Shown here piece after piece: positions 13,201 to 32,154 of a stretch of DNA of 64,000 bases. The notes beneath the pieces were generated by a model, which saw only the letters and a program-made list of their open reading frames with translations, was not told the origin of the DNA and ran no database searches. The stretch comes from Ricordea florida (Eukaryota; Cnidaria; Anthozoa; Corallimorpharia; Ricordeidae), in the NCBI GenBank assembly GCA_949710005.1, contig OX453273.1, forward strand, positions 4,125,206 to 4,189,205, written 5' to 3'. Within the stretch, counting starts at the first letter, position 1; each line of letters opens with the position of its first letter. Both the position numbers and the translations under genes were made by a program.

Positions 13201-14311
13201 GTCCGACATTATCAGGAAGATATCCATAAAGAGTTTTGGTATGTTTTTGTTGCAAACTCTTGATGCATCATGCAAAGATTGTCCTATTACATAGTTAGAG
13301 CTACTAACTATGCTTATTAGTAGCGTGGGAACGGAGAATGAATGCGAAGGGTCGTGTGAAGGAATTCTACGAGCAAGAGTCTTCTCCAAGAGCTACTATC
13401 CACAAAGCGTGACCTATTATCACGCACGACGCACGACCCACGACCCACCTACCCACGTGATTTAGCCATCCTCATCTGCAGCGCATTTGGAAAGTACTAT
13501 GAGAATACCCCTGTAGCAGATTTGTGATTTCCTGTGGACCCTAGCTAGCAGAAGTGGGAAATCATGAGTCTGTCATCTAACTTCCTTATACATCCAATTT
13601 TATAGTATTTTTTCATGATTATTATATATATAATACTTATAATAATGATCATGATGTTTCTATTATTTTTGTTGAGATATTCTATTGTTAATCTTTCTCA
13701 GATAAATTACCTTCCAGGTATCATAGACACACATCTCAAGGTATGTAAATACTTTCAATAATGTTTCAACCTCACCCAGTGTCTATGGTTATCATGATAT
13801 GTATAACTTTTGCTTTTGCTTTCCTGTTTTTCTGTGACTATTTAAAGCCACTTTAGGCTAATTAACTTGTTTTTGTTGCAGTCAAATGACAGTACAATCA
13901 AATGCCATGGTCTTAGAAGTGCCATGTATCTTCTTGCTCATCAGTGTGACAGGACAGTCAGCATATTGATAAGGTACACTCAACATTTGTCTTCTGTTAG
14001 TTTTTGCTAATGAAGGCTCCAAAGTGGAACAATCATGTGTGACAATTTAGTATAAAAAAAATTTCAGTTTTGCATGGGAACAATCAGCCATTTAATAGAA
14101 AACCTGTGCCTAGTATTTAGTTTTTCATTTTCATTAGCATTTCACTTTGGAGTAGCAAGGTAAAAAAACCCACAATTTTCGCAGCACCAGCCTACCATTT
14201 CATATTAGAATAGCCAATTGAGTCAGGCTACACTGTAGGTAGGGTAAAATCTCAGGCCCTTGGCATGCCTTAACCCTTTCACTCCCAAGGGGTCTCCATT
14301 TGACGAGTAAG

Positions 14312-14344
<33 letters not shown>

Positions 14345-15168
14345 AGTCACTCTTGGGAGTGAAAGGGTTAAGGGAGTAGTTGTATTATGGGCATTCTGGC
14401 GCAATTTGATTTTCGTTCGATTTTTTTGTGAAATCGCGGTTTTGGGTGTGGTCGATTTTGTCAGATGGGTGTGGCCAAAAAAAGTTTCTGCATAATTAAT
14501 TGGTTTGATTTTCGATCGAGGATTTTTTCGTTTGGATCGTCGATGTCCTTTGGGGGGTGGGGGTGGGGGCCGATTTGTTAAAGTGGGATTTTGTGTCGAT
14601 GTTGGTACCGATTGGCATACGCAAACGAAATGGCAAACATGAACGATTTGAGGTTCGCAACCAGGACGATTTCCAATGACTTAATCATGTTCAAACATGA
14701 AAGATATTTTGTGAAAGATGGTGTGTTGACTGTTGAATTGGAATGGTTTAATATAGGTCATTTAGGTAGACGTGAATTTCTTGATGCTATTAAACCAGAC
14801 ATAGCTCGGTATTATTCATTATATGGAAATTGTATTGGGCCAGCTACATGTGATGTTTCTTACAAGAGTAGATTCAGTCCACGCGTTGTATTTGTTGAGT
14901 GGGGTGTTGTACCTGTTTTTAAGATGGATTTTTTTTACGGTGAAAATAAAATGTATGGAATGGATGCAATTGTGAAAGGTTTGGATAATGATGAGATTCT
15001 TAATCAAATAAACGCAAATGTTAAGTTACAACCATTTAATTTTGATCCTATTGATGACGTGTGGGATGATGATGAAAGAATTGATCCCGATGATGATGAG
15101 ATTCTTAATCAAATAAACGCAAATGTTAGGTTACAACCATTTAATTTTGATCCTATTGATGACGTGTG

Positions 15169-15202
<34 letters not shown>

Positions 15203-18200
15203 AGAATTGATCCCGATGATGATGAGATTGAATCTTTTCAAGTTGTTATAGATTTTGAGTATTCGGATTTGGTTACTAATTGTCTTAATGATGTGGTTTA
15301 TGAAGCAAACAGAAGAGCACATAAACGCATTTTCAAAGATGAAATTCAGGATGAGTTGATGATTGTAACATGGCATCCAGACAGGTTTTTGGATTGGTGT
15401 GTTGACATAGAAGAGTTGAAGTTTCTGAAAGAGCTTTGGAGAGTTGAGTGTTAAACATATGGAAGTACCTTTATGACATGGACCGTGTCATAAAAGTTGA
15501 AGCATGGTTGGCTTAGAGATTGCAATTTCAAAATACAATGGATGCCATGGAGAATCTGACAGTCAAAGACTTGAGGTCAATAGCCAAAAGAGCCGGTGTG
15601 AGTGTTCGAGGATTCAGAAAGGCTGAAATGCTTACAGCGTTATCTGACATACAACCTGAGAACTTGACAGTGAAGATACTACGAACCATGGCCAAGAAGT
15701 CTGGTGTTCGAGGTTCTGGCAACATGCGTAAAGAGGCCCTCATTAATGCTATTGGAGCTCCACAGGTGGTTGAAGCCAACGTTCCAGTTCCTGGTCCGGT
15801 TAGACCCACAAGAACAAGACCCGCCCGGGCTTCGTATGGAAGGGCCGTTGCTGCTGCCAGGCGTGAAATCGTTCAGACTACAGAGTGGATACGATCCAAT
15901 GTTAGAGACCCAAACAAGAGGGCCATTACCAGGAGATTAAGAAAGGCAGCTGCTGCGGTTAGAAGGGAGGAACCTGAGTTTTTCGTCCCTGAAAGACATG
16001 AAACGGCTCTGAGAGGCTTTTTGAGGACTTACATAGTAAAGGGCAGAGCTGGCTACGATCCAACTACATTTCTTGGCAATGTTAGAACACCATTCTATGT
16101 TTTGATGCTTAGACTTAGGAAGCCATTCAAGTTGAAGTGTATTCTTTCGTGTGGATTCGCGAGGAGGAACCCCCAAGATAATCGTGTTATTGAGCGGAGT
16201 CAAGGTCATTTCCATTCACTGATGGAGACAGTGACAGCTTCAACAGACACATATGCTTTGTTTGATAGCATCAAAGCTAAACTGGTCGAATTGGTGCAGA
16301 AATACGAGAATGAGCACTCTGGATGGGTGTTTGAAAGTGTGTTTGACTTTCGTATTCATTTGAACCCATTTCAACCCTTTTCTGGAACTTCATACATTAA
16401 ACTACCACCCAAATTGGCTGCTAAGAAGGCAATCGTCAATGTCAAGAATGAGGATCAAGAGTGCTTCAAATGGGCAGTGACATCTGCTGTGTTTCCAAGG
16501 GAGAAGGATGCTGGAAGGCTGAACAGAGAGATGAGAGAGAATTCAGAGAAACTCGATTGGTCGGGGATAGAGTTTCCAGTGGCAGCACTCAGTACAACCC
16601 AGATAGATAGATTTGAAAGGCAGAACCCATATGGGATAAACATCCTTGGTTATGAGAATGGCGAGCCAACCCTAATCAGGCGTAGTAAAAAGTCAGGGGT
16701 TACAAAGATAAACCTACTCTTGATATCAAACGAAGAGACAAATCATTACTGTTGGATAAAAAACATGTCAAGGTTTGTCGAGTATAATAACCATCATGGT
16801 ACTCGTTTCTATTGTGACAACTGCCTAAACTCGTTCAATTGTCAAAAGTCACTGGACGGCCATATGGAGTACTGCCTAAACAACGAATCAGTCAAAGTCC
16901 AGATGCCCATGGAAGAGGATGGCAGCCCAAAGTACATTACCTTCACGAACCACAGACGGAAGATGCAAGTGCCATTTGTGATCTATGCTGATTTCGAATG
17001 TTTCACCGAGAAGTTGGACACTTGTTTACCGGATGACAGGGACAGCTTCACAAATCAGTATCAGAAGCACAAGCCATCAGGATTTTGTTACCTTATCAAG
17101 TGTTTCGACGATGGCATCTTTGAGCCCAAGTTGGTGATGAGAACAGCCAACTCACCGGAGGATGACATACCGCAAATGTTTCAGGAAAGTTTGGAGGAGG
17201 ATGTCAAGAAGATCTATGATCAATTCAAGTCTGAAAGGAAGCTTGTAATGAAGAATAGTGATCATAGGAAGCACGGAAAGGCCACTCACTGCCATATTTG
17301 TGAGGGTGAATTGGGGAACGATAAGGTGGTTGACCACTGTCATTTTACAGGTAGGTACAGAGGAGCAGCCCACAAGAAATGTAACCTGGAATTTAGCACA
17401 CCCAAGTTCTTTCCAGTCATCTTTCACTACTTGTCTGGGTATGACAGTCACTTGTTTATCAAGAAGATGGGAGTGTCAGAGGGTAAGATTGATTGCATCC
17501 CACTCAACGATGAAAAGTACATCTCATTCACCAAAGAGATTGTGGTTGAAAAGTTTATGAAGAAAGACGATGATGGTAAGGAAAAGGAGGTTCAGATTAA
17601 ACGAACCATTAGATTTGTAGACAGTTTTAGGTTCATGGCAAGTAGTTTGGCTAGGTTGGCTGACAACTTACCGAGAGAGTCGTTGGCAAATCTTTCGAGA
17701 TACTATGAAGGGGCAAACTTTGATCTTTTGGCTAGGAAGGGAGTGTTCCCCTATGATTGGTTTGATGGCTTCGACAAGTTACAAGTGTCCAGTCTGCCAC
17801 CCAAGGATGAGTTCTATTCGATACTATACGACACAGACATATCGGATGACGATTATCAACATGCCGGAAACGTGTGGGAGACCTTTGGTATGAGAAGTTT
17901 TAGGGATTACCATGACTTGTATCTCAAAACAGATGTGATCCTGTTGGCTGACGTCTTTGAGAATTTCAGAGGGGTTTGTATGAAGAATTACGGGTTAGAT
18001 CCAGCATGGCATTATACTGCGCCTGGATTGGCTTGGGATGCTACGTTGAAGATCACTAAGGTTGAGTTGGAGCTTTTGAGGGACCCCGATATGCTGATTA
18101 TGGTGGAGAATGGTATCAGAGGTGGAATCTCAACGATTTCGACCAGGCATGGGAAGGCCAATAATCGATACATGAAGAACTACGATCCCAAGTTGCCTAC

Positions 18201-21200
18201 AAAGTTCATCACCTATTTGGATGCGAATGGGCTCTATGGCTATGCAATGACCAAGGCTTTGCCAACCCACGGTTTTGAGTGGATGAGTGATCAAGAGTTG
18301 GTAGACTGGAGGAACCATCCATGCATATTGGAGGTGGACTTGGAGTACCCATTGGAGTTACACGATCTCCATAACGATTACCCATTAGCCCCAGAGAGGG
18401 TGGATGTTGATGGGGTTGTTAAGTTGGTTCCCAATTTGAGAGCCAAGAAGAAGTACATTCTACACCACGAAGCTTTGAAACAGTACTTGTCGTTGGGGTT
18501 GAAGTTAAGCAAAGTTCACAGAGGGATCAAGTTCGAGGAGTCGGAATGGCTGAGGTCCTACATTGATCTGAACAATAGCCTGAGAGCCAGGGCTGAGAAT
18601 GATTTCGAAAAGGACTTCTTCAAGTTGATGAACAACTCAGTGTTTGGCAAGACCATGGAGAACATTAGGAAGAGGGTGGACATCCAGTTGGTTACTGAGG
18701 AGAAGAAAGCGCGTAAGTTGATTGTGAAGCCAAACTTCCATCATAGGAACATCTTTTGTGAGGATCTTACCGCCTTCCACATGAAGAGAACGAAATTGCT
18801 CTTTGATAAGCCCATTTACTTGGGGTTGTCCATTCTGGATCTTAGCAAGACAGTCATGTACGATTTCCATTACAGGTACATAAAGCCCAAGTATGGGGAG
18901 AAGGCCAAGTTATTGTTCACAGACACGGATTCTTTAGCTTATGTGATAGAGACTGAGGACTTTTACAGGGACATCAGACACCAGCAACTACCCCATGGAG
19001 CATCCATCCGGGATTGAGACCGGAGTGAACAAAAAGGTCGGAGGGATGTTCAAAGACGAGGCTGGCGGTGATAAGGTAACAAAATCCTGATGGCTTGTGC
19101 TTCTGATACTGATTTGTGAAGCTGTCCCTGTCATCCGGTAAACAAGTGTCCAACTTCTCGGTGAAACATTCGAAGACTGGTTGACCTGGTTCGATGATGG
19201 TTCGAGCCAAATCATAGACTTCAAGACTCCATATGGGATCAGTAGCCCTTCGTTTGTCTCCACCTTCATCTTCACCCGGGGCATAAAGATACCTGACTTG
19301 AACATCTGGAGGTAATCTTTTCTCATCCAATCCCACAGGTCGCTTGTAGTCTGGAGTTTTGGTGTCAATTGAGTCCATTTTCAAAGCTTCGTCGGGCTCT
19401 TTTCCAGTAATACGGGTGGTCTCACTGTTGAGGGTCTTCATGATGGCTGGCAATCTATTCACCCAAACCGTGGATCGGGTATCACTAATCATCTCTTGAG
19501 CGTATTGATGGCTGAATAGCTTCTCACCGAGAGTCCTGTTGGCCCTCTCCACAAAAGCTTGAGCTCTATGATTTCCAGCTTCACTACGCTGGATTGTGAC
19601 TTGATGCTTTCTCATAAGAGTTGTTACATCACCCTTGAATTCTGTTCCTGGATCCACCATTAATATTTGTGGCCACTTCAACTTACGGGAATAAATCCGT
19701 TGAAAGGCATTGGCAACTTCACCACTCTCCTTTGAGGTCAATGGTTCGGCATCCTTGTATCTTGACGCGATATCAATCACGACTAAGGCATAGCGGTATG
19801 TTTTTCTTCTCACTGTATCGTGAGGAAGAAACAGCAAGTCCGCCTGATGGATCTGATTAGGCTTATTCACACTCCAATGTGGCCTGGGTATATACTTGGG
19901 GGCTGGGAGGTAAATGTGCCACAAGGCTTGCTTTTCCAACCACTCTTTGGCGACTTTTTCACTAACTTTGGCTGCTTTGGCCAATTTGGGGATGGCCGAG
20001 TATCCTTTCCAGTATCCATCAGTGGAGTAGTATAATCGATTTAAAACGTTAGAATCAGTCATTTACAAACAAGATTATAAGCATTTAAATGGCTTCCATA
20101 CCAAGCATTCTTGATGTCAATCGCATTCCAAGGACTCGTGAAGGTTTGAAGGCTATGACGTCATTAAACAGGGTCACACTAAACCCATCGTCAGCCGAAC
20201 CCGGTGAGACGCTGTACATTGAAATACCAAGATTGAGTGAAAATCTTGTGATTGTGCCCGGTAGCGTCTACATAACCTTTGACATGGTTGTGACCGGGCA
20301 CAAAGACAACACTCTTGTTAATAATTTGGGAAGGAACCTAATTTCACAGTATAAGGTTCTATTTGGTGGTGAAGTCGTAGAGGATCTTGGTAGATTTGAT
20401 TTGTTCAAGACTTACCACGACTTATTTCTGACCACTGAAGACCGTGAGAATAGATTGAGACAGGGCATATCCAATGTTAACATAAGGAAGATCAGGACCA
20501 ATGCGGGGAACAAAGATACGTCAAAAGCCAGGGACAATACGTTAGCTGTGATTCACAACACCAGGTACGCCATTCCATTAGATCACACAATCCTCAAAGA
20601 TCATGGCGTATTTTACCCAATAGGATTACCCCATCCACTTAGATTTGAATTGACGTTGGCCAAAGTGTCTGATGTTGTGGTTTATTCAAACCGTGAAGCA
20701 CCGCCTGATTACAAATTAATAAACATGGAGATGGAGTACCAGTGCATATCAAGCAATTCTTTGGCAAGTCAGGCTGTTGGGTCCTACACAAACGGGAAAG
20801 GGTTCACGTATGAAAAGGTACTTCTTCACAAAACCTTCACAATCTCTGAGGCAAATGATTCTGTGATAAATCAGCATGTCAATGTGCCGAGGAGATCTAT
20901 GACTGGCATACTATGTCTTTTCACCGCCCCTCATGCAGAAGGACTCAGGGACTCTGAAATGTTTGCAAACCCAAAGATCACGTCAGTCAAGATCGACATA
21001 GATGGAGTGCCCAACCAAGTTTATCTGAAAGGTATGATGGCGACTGATTTGTGGCAATCTGTCATTAAGCGAGTCGGTCTGAGTGATTCAATCGATGAAT
21101 CTGATTTCTATACAGATAAGTTCGCTTTGTGGATTGACCTGAGGACTTATCCAGACAACGACATCCATGGAAGTGGTTTGTACATTCACGCTACTCGTGA

Positions 21201-24200
21201 TGGAGTGACTTTGGAAATTAAGAGAGAAAAGGTAGGCACTAGAGTTCTTACGTGCCACATGTTTGTTATTGCTGACGCTGTCATGAGCATTGTGAATGGT
21301 GGACTAAAGGAGATTAGATATTAAGCCGCTGTATGGTTTTCTTCTCACGATGTCATGAGAAGAAACATCAATCTAAAGGGGTTCATGTAGTGAGTAACGA
21401 TGAATGAGCTCAGAGATTTGATTCCATTCAATTGCATCATCACTGGTCCCACGAATTGCGGAAAGACCCAATACATAGTGGAGCAGCTTCGAGGCCACTA
21501 TAGGCAAGTGTTTGATTATATTGTGTTGATTTGTCCAACATATGCCCATAACAAGACGTATAGAGGCTTTGCCAAGGGGGACAAACGATTCTTTGTCCTG
21601 TCGCCAGATGCCAGTAATCATGACGAAATCAACAATTTGTTGATGGACTGCGAATCGTTCTTCTCGGGTACCAATACGCTCCTAATATTGGACGACTGTG
21701 CCGTTTCCAAGGATCTGAAGAATAGGTCCAACAAATTCATCGGTTTGGCCTTCTCTGGGAGACATGTAGGGATATCAGTCTGGGTTCTCACTCAGCAACT
21801 GACATCCATAGCCAAACCATTCCGTGAAAATGTAGCTTGTGTGGTCTCATTCCACAATCCATCTCAAACGGCGATGAAGATGCTTTTCGAGGAGTACGGC
21901 GGGGACCTGGATGCTGAAACGTGGAAGAAACTCAAGAAGCATCTTATGAATGAAAAGTATGCCAGGCTATGCTTCTCCCTCAGACATCCATTCCAAAACT
22001 ATTTAGAAATACCGGCTCTAACGGCACAACCATGACAACTCCCGAAGAAATCATGAATGGTCAAACTGCAGTGGTAGAACAATCGCCGCCAACCATGAAC
22101 GTTGATGATGTGAAAGCTAAAAGAGAAGAGCTGGCAATACTAGTTTCCCTAGGCTCTAGCAAGGAGTATCTTGGCGTTCAGATGGCTCTAGGTGACGTCC
22201 ACAGATTGTCGGATAGGGACGTAGAGAAGTACTACAAGAGGTACAAGATGGTGTCTGGTAAGAATGTGGCTGAAGGACTAGTTGATCCTCCTTTACATCT
22301 ATTGGCCAGACTAGTCAACTGGTCTCTTAGTAGTTACGGTGGAATAGATGATCCAGATGCTTTGGTAGAGGATTGGAAGAACAACCAGTTGATCAAGCAG
22401 ACGCTGTCAGAATATTCTGGTTCAATCGTGGTACATGGTGGTGCGATTGTTACGTTATTGATAATAGCCCTTACCACTCTCAAGCATTTCAGACTAAATG
22501 AGCCTAGCCCTCCCACTAGATTGTACGACATGGCTAACACGGATGAAGATTGGGGTGAGGGCGTCGACACTGTTCGATGAAAAAATTGAAAACGATCGTG
22601 GAAGGGGTCGGTGTGAAGGCATACTCGAAAGAGATCGAAAACATGTCTCAGAGAAAACACTCAACTTCCTCAAATGGTTCAATGACGTCACTGAAAACTC
22701 ATTTCGTACCCATCGACGTAGATGACTTCAATTGGGACTCTATTGAGATAGAAGCTCCAGTGAAGAGAGGCAACTACTCCTTTTCGAGACTTATTGTTCG
22801 GGATGGTGATGGTGAAGCCGTCAATCTGGCTTTCCAATTGGCTGACCAAAACATATTTGGTCTCAAATGGAACAATGGTCACGAGAACAAAAAGCCCAAG
22901 TCTGGTATCAAGTTCAACTATTTGCTGCGTGACGATGAAACTCGATCCAGGTTTGACATCATCACGGATAAAGTCGCCTCTGCCATTGAGAAATTCTACG
23001 CTGACGAGGTTATTTGTAAGAAAATGCCCAAATTGAGCAAAATTCAGCTCGAAGCCATGAAGAAGGGGGACACGATCTGATCAAACCACCGTATTCCACA
23101 AACGAGAATGGAAATACATGTGTATACCCAGAATTCAACACGAGTGGAAGTGGAACCAACCTGAAAAACCACACAGCATTCATTGGTCGAAAGAATAAAG
23201 GTTGGATTGATTACATCCCTAAAGATGCAGAGGATGACAGTACAAAGGCATGTGCAACAGTCTCTTTGAGAATCAAAGGGATAACATTTGGTGCCTGTGG
23301 GACTGCTATGGGGTGCATGGCCAACGTGAAGTACGTGGTCCAGGCCATTAAACTAAGAAAGCCAATGGAAGAAGTAAAGGTTGCAGAGGACAATGTTTTC
23401 GCAGACATGCCTAACGACGAAGACTCCGATGAAAATGATGAGTAGGAATGTTGGCAGCAAAAGGGTAAGAAGAAATAAGGGTTGGGTGGGATCTGACAGT
23501 TTCCTAGTATGCAACTTACTAGGAGACTTAAAGCTAACAATAGAGTAACTCACAACATGTCTGAACAAGAAGTGCAAACTAAAGAGTCTGGTGTTGAAAG
23601 AAATAATAAGAAAGTCATACATGGTGTTATCGAGAAGCAGGATAATGGGGGCATATACATATACTTGTTATCGAAAGATAATGAGGAAGTTTGCATTAAT
23701 CTAGCAAAAGCATTAACCAATGTAGTTGTAAAGATGAGAAAAGATAGTAGAGTGAAGGTTGCCCAATTTGTTGTACATGATGGTGGTATATACTTTCGCT
23801 TGAAATTGGGTGAGGATGGAGTAGAGTATATGTTATTTAGAGATGGGAAGGAAGTGTTTTCAAGTCTGTCAGCGCCAAAGACTAATCTAGTGAAAAGATT
23901 AGCAACTGTAGCTGTAATTGCAACCACAGCTTGGTTCCTACTCTTTTAGTATACATCTTTAGTTTCCTAGTATGCAACTTACTAGGAGACTTAAAGCTTA
24001 CAGTAGATTACCTTACAACGACAATATGTCTGAAGAAACAAGTCAGGTTGAGCAAATCACTAGAGAGCCTTCTGTCAAAACCAAGGTCAAAGACCCCAAG
24101 CGAGTTCAGGCTGGTAAAACGTTATCGGAAAAGAACAAGAGGGCCAGAGAGGCTTTGAAACGTGAAGAGGAAAGGGAGAAGAAAGAGAGTGAAAAGGAAG

Positions 24201-27200
24201 AGGATAAGGGTGGTGAGAGAGGTGGTTGGATGCCGTCCCAAACTATCTCTTTAGCCATAGGTGCAATTGGCCTCACCGCCTATGGACTGTGGACCAACTA
24301 TCGAAACAGGATACCTGACTTGCATTTTCCATCACAGCCCAAAGTCACAGAAAGTCCGCCCGTGGCCAGCAAAGCAAAGGAAACCGATTTAAAAGATGAT
24401 GTGTTATGATTCAAAATGACGGAGAATAAGCTCGTGAAGACAGTTACTGGCTCTGCATTGCTCGTTGGATTGTCAGCTGGGATGGGCTGGCTTGGCAAAA
24501 AGGCGCTTCGGGAGTCGTTCATCGGTGACCCATCGACCAGTATCATGAACTATGCCAAATGGGTAGGTGTGCTGACTATAGCCATGTATGTCAAAACCTA
24601 CTTAGAGGATCAGAAGATACTACCCACAAGTGTCTGAACATGCCTTTGAGTTTCACTGAAGCAATTAAAGATGCTCAAACTGATTACATTATTGATCTTA
24701 TGAGACACATAAGACAATCATACGTTAATGCTTTACACGAAACTGAGTATCTCTCTGTTGTGAGAAATTCAGAGGTTGAAATCGACCCCATGCCCAGTAA
24801 CAGAGAGCTTATCGAATGGTATTTCAAATCCGGAAATAGACAATTTCATCGTGCCAAGGAGCCTAAACTGGTAAGCTATCTTTTGAGAGATATGGATAAG
24901 GAACTTGATGAGACCAACAGGCCAGAAGAATCACCATCGCCACACCCAGTGGTATCGCTTACATTTGGAGTGTTGACATTGATCGCTTTATACACAGGCT
25001 CGAAATTGTTTAAGAAGTAGGACAACAAATGGACAAATGGCGACTATAGCAATCATGCTTGGAGGGGCCGTCGTCAATGCAACAGCCTTCATCGGTGGAA
25101 ACTATTTAGCAAAGGTCATTAGCGGCTCTTCCTCGACCGATCTCCAACTTGAAAGGGAAAGGCATGACAAAGCCATGGAGAAGTACCAGAAAGACTATGC
25201 TGCTTATCAAGAGAGACGAATGGCTTATATTGACTTTGAAAATCGTAGGAAGGGTGATGAGAATCAAGCCTCTGAGAACATATCAAAGACGGATGAAGCG
25301 CTAAGATTGTACAACCAAATGGGCAATCCCCCCAAATTCTCAGACTATTACCGACCCAATTCAGATCAAAAGACTGGGGAAATGGTCTACGTTTCTGGTG
25401 GGATGTTAGCCTTGGGATACATTGCCAGCAAGTGGATATGATGACTCCCCATGAGTATGTCAAGTTGGTGGGGACCAGAGCTGAGCAATTGCAGATGGGC
25501 AGTAAACCAGTGATAGACTGGCCATTTGATTTCAATCCTATAGCCATTGCCAAGAGTGAACTCAGACAACGAGTCTTACCACTCAACATAATCAGGAAAA
25601 TACCGGACTGCAATTCAAAGACTGGTTTCCGCGACGAGATATGGGACCCAAACGACATGCATATACGAGACTTTTGAAATCAGTTTAGAAGTTTCCATAT
25701 TCAACTTCAAATATGGCAACTGCTTATGATGATCCTGATTTGGATCCGACTACACTAAATGAGGCAGGTGATGGTGGTGATGGGGATGATACACTTTACT
25801 TGAGCCCAATCACAAAGACATCCACCACTCGTCCAATTGAACCTGATTATGAAGAGGAAGAAACCTCGTTTGGTGGTGTTGATGAAACTCGGCCCTTATT
25901 GATAGAAGAGATGGAAATAGAACAAGATGAAGCCTGGGCCAAGATTAGATCAAGATTCCCCAAAGTTGATACGTCTAAGTTTACAGCCAAACTGAATGAA
26001 TTCAAACAAGTAGTCGTCAAATTGCTGAGGAAAGGATCAAAACCTTATGTGTTGTTCAAAGGTGATGATGAATTGAATGATGGATTGCCAGACACCATCA
26101 AAAACAATCTAGGCCCAAGAGCAGAAGAAGTCGTGGAAGCCAATGATGGTGTGATCGCTGAGAAAAAGGGATTGCTCACCAAAATGAAGGAGACGCTAAG
26201 ATTCCAAAGAGACAAACCGCTGAAGACCCCAGAAGAAGAAAGTAACATAGAGACTCTGGAGAGGGAAATCGGTGAGCGGGAAGAGGAGATAGCCAATTTG
26301 GAGAGTGAGAATGAGAGAATCCAGGAACGAATGTCATTGCGGGATCGTGTGAAGGCCATCTTCAAGAAATACGGGTTCACAGTCTTTGCTGTCATGAGTG
26401 CCGTTGGAGTGGTCATTGGTGTCATAGTCTCCAACCTATCCAAAGGGCTATCGAAATTGGGCAAGGGTGTTGGTGATGGGCTAAAAACTCTCGGGAAGAA
26501 ACTTGGCGAATTGCTGCCTGGGATGGTGGGCGCTATTGTAAGCTTCCTATTCAAGACTGCTGGAGAGGTCGTCTCATTTCTGGGGAAACATGCCTGGCTG
26601 TTAATAATGGCCGTTGTGCTTTACTTCATAGAAGAGTTAAAAAGGAAACGTACATGAATCAAATGAAGAGCTATTGTGTCAAAGAGAAAAAGCTGACTGC
26701 TTGTGTACCTGGTAGTGAAACCTTGGCCAAAATAGCCAAAGGAAGGCCGATGATGAAGTGCAAATGTTCCAGCTGTGGCATCATCAAAACTCGATTCCTC
26801 TCAGAGGCTGACTATAGAAGTTTAAAGATGGCGAAGACGTAATCAAACAACATGTTGAGCATTACTATGTACACGTCTGAAACCAGAGTGTATTTGGACC
26901 CCCCATTGGAAGAGGTTCGGGAGATCCAACTCCTCGACTGTGTTGTACCCAAACGATTGGTGAACTTCAAGGATCGACAGGTCTTTCTCAAGGAGGATCG
27001 ACCCATCATAATAGTTCAACCCGGTACATACTCTCTACGTGGCATACACGCAATATTTCTGAACGATACGGATAACGCCAAGCTGTCGATCATTGAGACT
27101 GACACCGTTGATTACCTGTACTCCAACAAGGGCCTCAACATTAAACTCACAAGAGGGTTACAAGTTGCTCTTGGGGTGCCTGAAATCGTAACCCCTGGAA

Positions 27201-30200
27201 AGCTGTACCCCATCAACATACAGATTAAGGAGCCGCTGAGACTTTTGTGCAGTCTAGTGGACAATAAGTCGTCATATGCGAATGAGACTAAGTATAGTGA
27301 CCTCGTGAAACTCTCGCCTTCCCACCTCCTTGCCAACATACCATCACAAGATTACCCGGCCATGCCAGTCCAAAACCATGAGAATCTCCTAACCCACTTC
27401 GACTTAAGCATCCTCGACATTGGATGGAAGAAACTTGATCTGAAGGGTTCCCCCATCACATTCAGTATACGATTCAGATAACATCTTAAAAGTAAGTGAT
27501 CCTCAGTCCAAAATGGGAGAATATAAGGCGATTTACCCTAACTTGGAAGCCACTGCACCTCCTCCCACTGATGGACCATCATTCAGGCTTCAACAATGTT
27601 GTGATGCCTTGAACAAGCTAAAGTCTGAATTAAACCACTACGAGACAGTACTCAAAAAATACAACCGATCCAAGGGCACACTCATGAATGTAAGCTCGAC
27701 CTGTGGTATAATGTCTTGCATCTTAGCGGCTGGCGGTCTGGGCACGTCGCTTAGTGGTGTCGGAATCGTCGCATCTGTACCATTGGGCGTAGTGAGTGGT
27801 GTGTTTGTGTGTGCATCCATAGCGTGTCAACAGATATCCAAGAGACTGTCCCAGAAAGCCGTGAAGCACCAAAACACCATCACACTGGCCAGATCCAAGA
27901 TAAACACCATTGAAGACCTGGTTTCCAAAGCCCTTCGTGACAATACGATCTCTGACTCAGAATTCTCGTTGATCATGGACGAACTCAAGAAATTCGAAAA
28001 GCTTAAGGCTGAGATACCGGCTAAGACTCAAAAAAATGTGAGTGGAGAGGACCCGTTGGTGCTGAGGCAGAGAGTACGCGAAGAAATCCTCAAAGAACTA
28101 AAAGGAGGACCATAACTATCATATATGAGCAAAACAAATACTAGTCCAAATAGGCTTAAACGGTTGATAAACCAGTAACACAACCATGGAAAACAGTCAA
28201 ACTAAAAATCAATTGGAGTGTGACTTAGCAAAAGCAGAAGAAAGTGTTGAAAGACTGGAAGAAAGTGTTGAAAGAGCAGAAGAAGACATTGGAAAAATAA
28301 AATACACACTCAATTTTGGAGTGCAAGTTTTGGCGGCGTGTGCTGTGATTGAAGTTCTTCGTGTCATGTCGTCATTGCTTCTTAATTAATCATACGCCTC
28401 TAATGACTTAAACGTTTGAACCCTTCTACCCAAATTCTGGATAGAAGATGGGCTTACTCGATGACTTCAGAAATAAGTATCCAAAGGCTGACCTTGACCA
28501 ATTCAGATTTGTGAACGATCAATATGGGGGGTACGTTAGATGGAAAGATAACGGTATGACAGTCATGTCCTATGATGACCCCACTGGCAAGACATGGACT
28601 GATGGGATGCAACCAAGTTTGAAATCGCGACTCTGGACTGATCTTGGACTGGCCTCCCTGAACTCGTTCCCACCAAGCCTGACCATGACCAAACGATACT
28701 ACCCGATACCCGCCATTGATTTTGACGAACCCACCAGCAACACCACAAACATGCTGACCTCGCTGGACATATACGTGTCCAATACGAAGAAATTCACCGC
28801 CAAGATGCGTAATGTTTTCACCTCCCAAGTTGTAACTTTCAAGTTTGGGAAACAAAGTCGAAAGTGGTTGAACGCCCCCGACATGAACTACTGGCCACAA
28901 CAACTAAACTTTGCAGTGTGGTGTGCGACCTCTGGCTGTGGGATTAGCCCCTTCGAGAGCCTCAACTACCCCAAAGTCGTGAATAGCTTCATCAAGTTTC
29001 ATGTGTATTTCACCATAAGACGTATTTTGTATGAACTGAATCTTCCACTGCCTGATGAGCAACCATTTGTAATCAACAACAACCCTTACAGCAAAGTCGC
29101 TTATCAACGATTGTGCGCTGAATTTGGCATCTCAAACAACTCTGACTTCAGATGGAAAGGTGGACGAAACGGGGGTTTGGGTGACATATTCATCGATTAT
29201 GGGGCTGGATACCATGGAATAGGTGGAGGATACCAAAACGTCCATATGGTAAGAAACTATGACGATGGAGCTGACCAATGGCCTGGTGAAGGTGGCAAAT
29301 TCGCTGATGATGGGGGTAAGAAGGAAAAGGGTGATCTCATCTCATTCATCCGTAATGACGACTTTGCCGATTACAAGTATGCTTGGTTCATACCAACGAG
29401 TGGTTATGGACTCACAACAGCTGGACTGGGCAGGTTGAATCGGTCTGCTGAAGCCTTTGTTTACTGTATATTGGGAGCTCAAGTCAACACTAGAAACTCG
29501 ATTGTAGGCACTGGTGGTGGAGCGATCGAGACTCAACAAGAATTCTTGGCCCTGTTTGAAAGTAGTGTGATCGAGAACGACATCTCGAGTTCGATCCAAA
29601 GGTATCAACTGGCCACCCAAGAAGCTAAATTACGGCTTGATTTGGCCATTGCTCCTGGAGTGTGGTTGATGCCCAGTAACATGATCATAAACACGGAGAG
29701 TGTGGTCGGGTATAACAACAACCTCATGAAGGCCACTGATGGGATGACATTTGGTGTCAACACAAACATAAACCTGGAGACTAAGACTGTGGGGATCAAC
29801 CATAATTTGGGGTCTTCAAAGGTCAAGTTGCCGCATGCAATTGTAGAGACTAAACGTTCAACAACAACACCAACGATTCCTCCTCGTCCTGAACTCAAAG
29901 AAGAAACAAATACTAATCATGAAACCAACCTGATACTGTTAATCGTTGGAGTTGGAATTGCCGCTTGGATGCTCTTCAGATAAAAATTGAAATGGCCAAA
30001 CCATAGATCATGGCCTCGTAAATCATGACATCATTGGCAATCGTTGGCAGCAGATACTTCAATGACATGTCCTTCTTGAAAGAGCAAATACGTAAAGCCC
30101 TCAAGAAATGGAAGCTGGATCTCTCAGACATACAATTGATTGTGTCTGGGGGTGCAGAAGGAGTTGATGAACTGGCCAGAGATTTTGCCACTGAAAAGGA

Positions 30201-32121
30201 GATCCCATTCAAAGCGTTTGAACCTCAATGGGACTATTATGGCAGGGCGGCTGGGCCAATTCGCAATAGGCAGATCATAGGGTGTGCAACGCATGTATTG
30301 GCCTTGCCTTCTTGTATTTACTCGCCAGGTACCAAATCAACTATTAAGTTGGCTAGGAAATACAAGAGACAGGTTGTAGTCGTTTATGTCTAATGATTAA
30401 GTGAACTTTTGTAACGTGAAGCGCGTTACAAATGTCTTTGGATACATCACAAAGGACCGCACTTCTCACAATCCTTCCGTAGCTTAATATGACGACAAAT
30501 ATACTCTCCACTACATTCATGGCACATCCATTTCTTATTATTCGTCTTAATTCTACCATGTTTACAATAACGATGAGGGCTACACACTTTACAATAATTT
30601 CTCTGTCTACCGTGTGAACAAATTCCACTACCATGACATTCTTTACAATGATATTTATGTCTGTAATGTTGACAGATACCTGAACCACCACACTCTTTAC
30701 AATAATATTTTATTCTACCGTGTAGACAGATAGCTGTACCGGGACACTCCTTACAATAGTATTTCCGTCTGCCGTGTTGACAAATCCTAGAACCGCCACA
30801 TTCTTTACAATTATGCCTTATCTTGTCATGTTGGCAAATCCCAGCACCATCACACTCCTTACAATAGTATTCCTCTCTGCCATGTGGACAACGTTTTCTT
30901 GGTTTAACTTGAGCGCAATCCATTGTGTGTATACCACCACAGTATAACCATCTAACATCAGTTACACTTTTGTAATGTCACACACTCCCACGCTTCCGTT
31001 TTAATACCACGCCCCATTCCATACATACTTTTACGACGTAGCAACCGCGATTCTAGAAATGGGTTTGATGTTTACTTTCTAAAGTCCCGTTTCTAACGTC
31101 GCTCAGGAATGTAATGACGTCAATGTAAAACCACTTTGAACCGGAAACTTCTTGACCTCATCTGTTATAACTTTTGTAACATGATCCATGTTACAAAAAT
31201 ATCATGCATGATTACCAGTGAGTCCCCCAACGCTCCTTCACCTCTTGGAACTCTTCCACGTCTAGACACCAATATACAAACCTACTTGGATGCCATGCTA
31301 CAGACATTAGTTCTTCCCAAATTCCATTTAGAAAAATACGTCTGTGCTGAGCCTTCCAAGCCTTATGTAACAACTCGTCTTTGAAACTTGTGTGTATGTT
31401 AACTGCAAGATCTCCAATAAGAAGGTCATCGACAGAATATGGCCGTTCAAGGTCAGCGTACATCATACCAAACAGAGTTAAATCTTCCGCGCCCTTACAT
31501 AAGTCCTCGGCAATGTCCTTGACACACAACTTGTCAAAATCTTTTTGTGTGTATTCACATACTATCTCGTTATCGTCAATTGGAAAAAAGGCCATGGTAA
31601 ATACAAGACGGACCTTCTCGACCAAACACTGGTTGAAACTAGTCACTCTATGTAATATCCTTGGTTTGTTCTTTTCCAGGAAATCATAAACTCCTGACGA
31701 GTCCACGTTGTCATAGATAAAGCTGAATGACGTTGGCATCATAATGTCATTAATGAAAGCAATTTCATCCATCATTTTGTTCAAGTATGCCTGACGGTAC
31801 CAGTAAACCATTTCGTTTGCGTATGCCAATCGGTACCAACATCGACACAAAATCCCACTTTAACAAATCGGCCCCCACCCCCACCCCCCAAAGGACATCG
31901 ACGATCCAAACGAAAAAATCCTCGATCGAAAATCAAACCAATTAATTATGCAGAAACTTTTTTGGCCACACCCATCTGACAAAATCGACCACACCCAAAA
32001 CCGCGATTTCACAAAAAAATCGAACGAAAATCAAATTGCGCCAGAATGCCCATAATACAACTACTAAGGGAGATAGTTTTTAACCCTTTCACTCCCAAGG
32101 GGTCTCCATTTGACGAGTAAG

Positions 32122-32154
<33 letters not shown>

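Follow-up and report, generated by a model that had tools for sequence, protein, structure and literature searches.

A Polinton of 17.7 kb in the DNA of Ricordea florida carries a small gene for an Rpb6-like RNA polymerase subunit, and this gene is maintained as a conserved coding frame in many copies in the host genome. Sequence comparisons indicate that a Polinton ancestor most likely acquired it from a giant-virus-type lineage, a direction of transfer that we infer. We regard it as an evenly balanced proposition that this lone giant-virus-type Rpb6 docks onto a borrowed polymerase; host Pol II would be the likelier partner, and docking, target and effect alike are inferred. All positions are those of the window, the whole stretch of 64,000 nucleotides that was analysed, in which the features are the following.

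14375-14633, no strand: left terminal inverted repeat, about 259 bp, the same as the right arm except for a 1-nt indel
15538-19017, + strand: PolB-type DNA polymerase ORF, apparently truncated past motif C (from motifs)
18974-20062, - strand: rve-type integrase ORF (Pfam rve, E 1.9e-7, 31.7 bits, cut-off 32.6)
20089-21324, + strand: major capsid protein, double jelly-roll type (Pfam Capsid_N, E 3.6e-5, 23.8 bits, cut-off 24)
21400-22035, + strand: packaging ATPase (Pfam Pox_A32, E 2e-11, above cut-off)
25037-25441, + strand: g25037, the gene immediately upstream of Rpb6, its stop overlapping the Rpb6 start
25438-25677, + strand: Rpb6-like RNA polymerase subunit (Rpb6), 79 aa (homology, fold, purifying selection, genomic copies)
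25678-25712, + strand: 35-nt spacer past Rpb6, the counterpart of which adjoins g25037 in 11 empty-site elements
25713-26657, + strand: g25713, the gene immediately downstream of Rpb6 (ORF position)
26852-27481, + strand: candidate minor capsid (penton) protein, without a Pfam match
31808-32065, no strand: right terminal inverted repeat, about 258 bp; AAGGG outside it is a 5-6 bp target-site duplication

The element is bounded by inverted repeats of about 259 bp, with AAGGG directly outside both ends. These repeats, together with the integrase, the ATPase and the capsid gene, support the placement of Rpb6 in a Polinton proposed in a preliminary description of this DNA. That description had also reported no other polymerase subunit, and Pfam scans of the 22 other ORFs of the Polinton indeed detected no second one. 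The ORF at 15538-19017 is taken by us to be PolB from motifs recognised by eye; it has neither a Pfam PolB match nor a meaningful PDB sequence match, and it contains a SAP/Rho_N N-terminus and an Endonuclease VII-like insert (Pfam Rho_N and Endonuclease_7 above cut-off, SAP below). Exactly 106 nt of it (16993-17098) recur as an inverted copy at 19069-19174, in the 3' part of the integrase ORF; this copy and the end of the polB ORF soon after motif C represent a rearrangement or an assembly fault in the window copy. The ORF at 26852-27481 is presumably the minor capsid (penton) protein. The capsid protein and the integrase gave no meaningful PDB sequence match, no Ulp1-like cysteine protease was matched among the Polinton ORFs scanned, and nothing was found either by an Rfam search of the whole window or by a tRNA scan of 14000-32500. 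The host genes of the window include ones of the chondroitin GalNAc-transferase type and an animal haem peroxidase, which indicates an animal host.

The Rpb6 ORF proved to be as first described, with the family signature (the core G-x-R-A-x-Q-L, DP/NP-I-x-I-A and P-x-x-I-x-R) and the R..PD C-terminal end. In a phmmer search of the PDB at E<=10, 27 of the 28 matched sequences were Rpb6 or RpoK (best 5.8e-8), the remaining one being a bacterial omega at E 1.5. The profile matches were to NCBIfam RpoK (7.1e-11, 42.1 bits, below the cut-off of 57) and Pfam PF01192 (0.0012, 19.2 bits, below the cut-off of 26); PHROGs gave no match. A failure to match the Rpb6 fold had been named beforehand as a possible refutation. 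The AlphaFold model does match it, with two helices followed by a two-strand hairpin (strands 51-56 and 64-69). The PDB matches, the fold and the purifying selection between copies rule out chance similarity. The Rpb6 ATG overlaps the stop of g25037 (ATGA), and 35 nt separate its end from g25713. The protein is almost reduced to its core: only 2 residues precede it in the window and 2-10 across the eight Polinton-type rows of our alignment A5 (which leaves out P0018 and also served for the residue comparison), compared with a median of 33 and a minimum of 10 in 63 giant-like rows. The N-terminal tail of RPABC2 type, which binds TFIIH p62, is missing.

Copies were sought in the 537.8-Mb host genome of the window. 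The best 150 of 374 Rpb6 candidates were scored, a list ranked by score in which divergent or broken copies are under-represented; the genome holds at least 150 copies of 83-100% identity, 149 of the scored ones being without an internal stop. For the capsid gene at least 101 copies, 94-100% identical, were scored from 6127 first-look candidates, not all of which are genes. The host genome thus bears a large Polinton load. A listed Rpb6 lies downstream on the same strand within 30 kb of 59 of the 101 scored capsid-gene copies, at 4.9-5.9 kb in 53 of them. Absence of the gene from this position in related elements had likewise been set as a possible refutation; it recurs there in these 59 elements, yet is absent from 11 of the 20 sampled next.

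These 20 came first in score order among the 42 capsid loci for which no Rpb6 was listed; the other 22 were left out. Six contained an Rpb6 match, nearly full-length in one (L012) and partial in five; three were rearranged (L011, L016 and L022), and the remaining 11 showed a clean empty site, in which 34 nt (35 in one) that match the spacer past Rpb6 come directly after the g25037 stop and lead to the counterpart of g25713. Otherwise colinear elements therefore genuinely differ in whether they carry Rpb6. Two of the fetched loci, L013 and L014, appear to be duplicates of one another. In L018, about 3.8 kb of extra sequence separates g25037 from a partial Rpb6. Loss of Rpb6 in the empty subfamily would be the simpler reading of the trees of the two neighbouring genes, which are poorly resolved and were rooted, by our choice, on L009 and L010, both Rpb6-bearing. 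The trees call for two or three changes to account for the empty state, and neither rejects a single clade of empty-site elements (p 0.48 and 0.26).

Divergent Polinton families of the same genome also carry Rpb6. In ten further loci, chosen from the list of a genome search with a plant core and not at random, the Rpb6 frame is 59-88% identical to that of the window, and only 59-65% in seven of them. The preceding open frame reads in eight of the ten like a shifted end of a g25037-type gene, from which we conclude that the position of Rpb6 is common to divergent families. Other Polinton families of this genome, at loci L071-L074, contain a second Rpb6 type of 81 aa with a PD-to-W hairpin six residues shorter.

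The Rpb6 frame evolves as a conserved protein under purifying selection. Among 48 copies (43 distinct) taken from the best-scoring list of 150, a sample biased towards low pN, pooled pN/pS is 0.185, compared with 1.47 and 1.42 in the shifted and 0.98 in the antisense control frames; with a mean pS of 0.32 and these controls, the sign of selection can be taken as safe despite the bias. Median pairwise dN/dS is 0.138 (1108 of 1128 pairs usable), and diversity at the three codon positions is 0.081, 0.046 and 0.203, the third exceeding the others 2.5 to 4.4 times. The pN/pS value and the complete lack of stops in the 48 copies rule out a pseudogene. Eleven residues widely shared by Rpb6 and RpoK are invariant in all 48: T3, E6, R14, A15, G21, P34, I37, A38, E41, R53 and E67. 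The first codon is not ATG in 28 of the 48 copies, which places their start upstream, as in relatives of 82-87 aa.

Protein searches returned 6, 19 and 84 relatives. Of the last set, 71 match at E 3.4e-17 or better, some of them lying on contigs 176, 419 and 534 kb long; the other 13 are more distant (E 2.8e-12 or worse). Scans of viral contigs with P0001, family A1, the capsid protein, alignment A3, P0022 and the PolB ORF detected no relatives, nor did a scan of prokaryote genome contigs with the giant-like alignment A3. Eukaryotic and giant-virus-like Rpb6 were compared in a tree of 89 rows, from which the fragments P0007, P0020, P0075 and P0076 were left out and in which P0018 lacks 46 N-terminal residues. 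The free tree holds a clade of 72 rows (support 95/85, the second value starred) that unites the eight Polinton-type rows (P0001-P0006, P0008 and P0009) with 64 giant-virus-like metagenomic proteins; outside it fall four eukaryotic rows and, under labels that we assigned, nine mimivirus-like (P0077-P0085) and four archaeal ones (P0086-P0089). Within the clade the Polinton rows are placed beside P0010-P0013 and their kin, with support of only 86/76 and 85/91, and a position outside every other giant-like row is not rejected by the AU test (p 0.233). The likeness of P0002-P0009 to the copies in the host genome suggests that they lie in Polintons, and their source may be the host species or a close one. 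The giant-virus nature of the clade is deduced from contig sizes and from BFVD names, although insertions into host chromosomes could account for some of the long contigs; the nearest BFVD structures by name are giant-virus Rpb6 proteins, for example that of Marseillevirus LCMAC102. The Polinton protein also shows traits of the giant-like clade, namely W28, the final RD and a longer hairpin with G63, which is secondarily shortened in P0009-type copies.

We propose that the protein is a genuine Rpb6 subunit, common to the giant-virus-type lineage and kept at one fixed position under purifying selection. As no catalytic polymerase was found in the element, Rpb6 would dock onto a polymerase supplied by someone else, presumably through its conserved core and by addition of its two strands onto the largest subunit. 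Passages of PMC8754651 describe how, in human Pol II, strands beta3 and beta4 of RPB6 pair with a strand of the largest subunit, how the N-terminal tail of RPB6 binds TFIIH p62, and how tail mutations lower transcription by all three polymerases as well as transcription-coupled repair. Strands 51-56 and 64-69 of our model correspond to those joining the largest subunit in the human enzyme. Host nuclear Pol II, always at hand in the nucleus, appears a likelier target than a giant-virus polymerase, and a core-only, tail-less Rpb6 could take the host subunit's place in a fraction of the polymerase pool, which would favour transcription of the element or weaken that of the host. More broadly, and with confidence somewhat short of even, we suggest that animal Polintons may carry a giant-virus Rpb6 to enter and steer a foreign polymerase, either Pol II uncoupled from TFIIH p62 or the enzyme of a co-infecting giant virus. 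Against this reading stands a subfamily that lacks the gene (11 of the 20 loci sampled), so that Rpb6 is not essential to every element. The retained W28 and final RD, not shifted towards the host type, would fit a giant-virus polymerase at least as well.

Kinship with giant-virus-like proteins brings another possible target into view, and it argues against the protein being a simple mimic taken from the host. The Polinton could be a virophage-like parasite, or the descendant of one, whose Rpb6 would join a co-infecting giant virus's RNA polymerase, either for transcription of the Polinton in the viral factory or for impairing the viral enzyme. We rate this as rather unlikely, although the retained clade-typical residues and the giant-virus names of the nearest viral structures argue for it. 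We know of no giant virus of the Polinton's host and of no animal Polinton that needs a helper, and both points count against such a target. Nor was a shared, virus-type promoter motif established, which weighs on this target and on Pol II alike. No 6- to 8-mer was more frequent upstream of 20 genes than the average maximum in random sets. An EM search at width 8 found a TTTAAAAG-like motif that was equalled or beaten by 2 of 15 shuffled sets, and widths 10 and 12 gave scores that beat all 15, with consensus sequences that differ; the Rpb6 gene itself scores poorly for the motifs of the first two widths. In favour of this target, PMC10120064 states that giant viruses are required by some of the small relatives of Polintons.

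It seems improbable that the protein was exapted, with its fold kept, as a virion component or as a regulator unrelated to RNA polymerase. The element does lack a polymerase core and both flanking genes are of unknown function, but an exapted protein would be expected to relax the Rpb6/RpoK-shared residues that are invariant in the 48 copies.

Capture of the animal's own Rpb6 as a host mimic would be less probable still. Host-gene capture by DNA viruses is common, a single-sequence PDB search ranks eukaryotic RPABC2 first, and the AU test does not reject a clade of Polinton and eukaryotic rows at 0.05 (p 0.085). The free tree nevertheless separates the Polinton rows from the four eukaryotic ones, and the constrained tree is 29.6 log units worse. 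Metagenomic giant-virus-like proteins outside the near group, 47-67% identical to P0001, are closer than the plant, yeast and insect cores, and the PD-to-W hairpin has 11 residues, compared with 5 in eukaryotes, the plant protein among them. A host Rpb6 exon was not recognisable among the 150 plant-core matches scored from 355 candidates (identity <=45%), in a genome where introns split genes and may conceal one. Equally hard to credit is a functionless relic spread passively by Polinton amplification: some copies are indeed decayed (5 partial of 20 sampled) and one subfamily is without the gene, but the low pN/pS, the excess third-position diversity and the absence of stops oppose it.

The closest known proteins are the Rpb6 of giant viruses (Nucleocytoviricota), such as RNA polymerase subunit 6 of Marseillevirus LCMAC102 and C147L of ASFV. 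These have a longer N-terminal stretch and are one subunit of a complete viral polymerase (for ASFV, judging from PDB titles), whereas the Polinton Rpb6 stands alone in its element. Eukaryotic RPABC2 (Rpb6), common to Pol I, II and III, differs by its shorter hairpin, by a core identity of about 38% (plant protein) and by the p62-binding tail, as described in part of PMC8754651. The element resembles described Polinton/Maverick elements and animal adintoviruses in its TIRs, integrase, PolB (here from motifs), ATPase, capsid gene and size, and differs from them in the presence of Rpb6. According to a section of PMC10120064, the capsid genes of cnidarians lie outside the main Polinton group; PMC11071308 describes a coral polinton whose terminal protein is split. 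Yeast cytoplasmic linear plasmids (pGKL) are likewise small linear elements with polymerase genes, and extracts of PMC11071308 and PMC10328495 relate plasmids of this type to Polintons by PolB. According to an excerpt of PMC6211774, however, they encode their own two-subunit RNA polymerase, a capping enzyme and a helicase, whereas the Polinton has only one non-catalytic subunit.

The authors of the preliminary description were aware of no described Polinton Rpb6, and we found none, nor a virophage Rpb6, in full-text searches that stop short of supplements and most subscription papers. The term 'rpb' is absent from PMC11071308, PMC10120064, PMC11071296, PMC12220804 and PMC11253617, and both its occurrences in PMC10328495 refer to Rpb2.

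As a rule, Polintons are taken to depend on a polymerase that they leave unchanged. The presence of a lone but conserved Rpb6 suggests that the Polinton changes the polymerase itself through one small core subunit, and it points to genes having passed between giant viruses and animal Polintons. If a giant-virus polymerase were the true target, these Polintons would be virophage-like parasites, or defenders, in animals. Because one genome holds closely related elements that have the gene and others that lack it, the question is open to direct test, and the protein offers a natural tail-less Rpb6 for asking what the N-terminal tail does.

Several other genes of the element deserve mention. A small zinc-ribbon-like gene (26654-26842, + strand; weak DUF5679 match, E 0.00041, below cut-off) occurs in most sampled elements. 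At 30025-30393 (+ strand) lies a SLOG/YspA-like gene of a nucleotide-sensing fold (Pfam YAcAr, 5.1e-11, above cut-off), followed at 30447-30923 (- strand) by a cysteine-rich ORF of repeated C-x-x-C-type units with a weak match (E 2.5e-5) to a PHROG of unknown function. The two terminal genes, 14582-15454 (+ strand) and 31212-31811 (- strand), have a common C-terminal domain (44% over 55 residues) with the motif WHPxRFxxW and no Pfam match. Close outside both Polinton ends, a palindromic repeat of about 100 bp is present in the same orientation (14271-14370 and 32081-32182).
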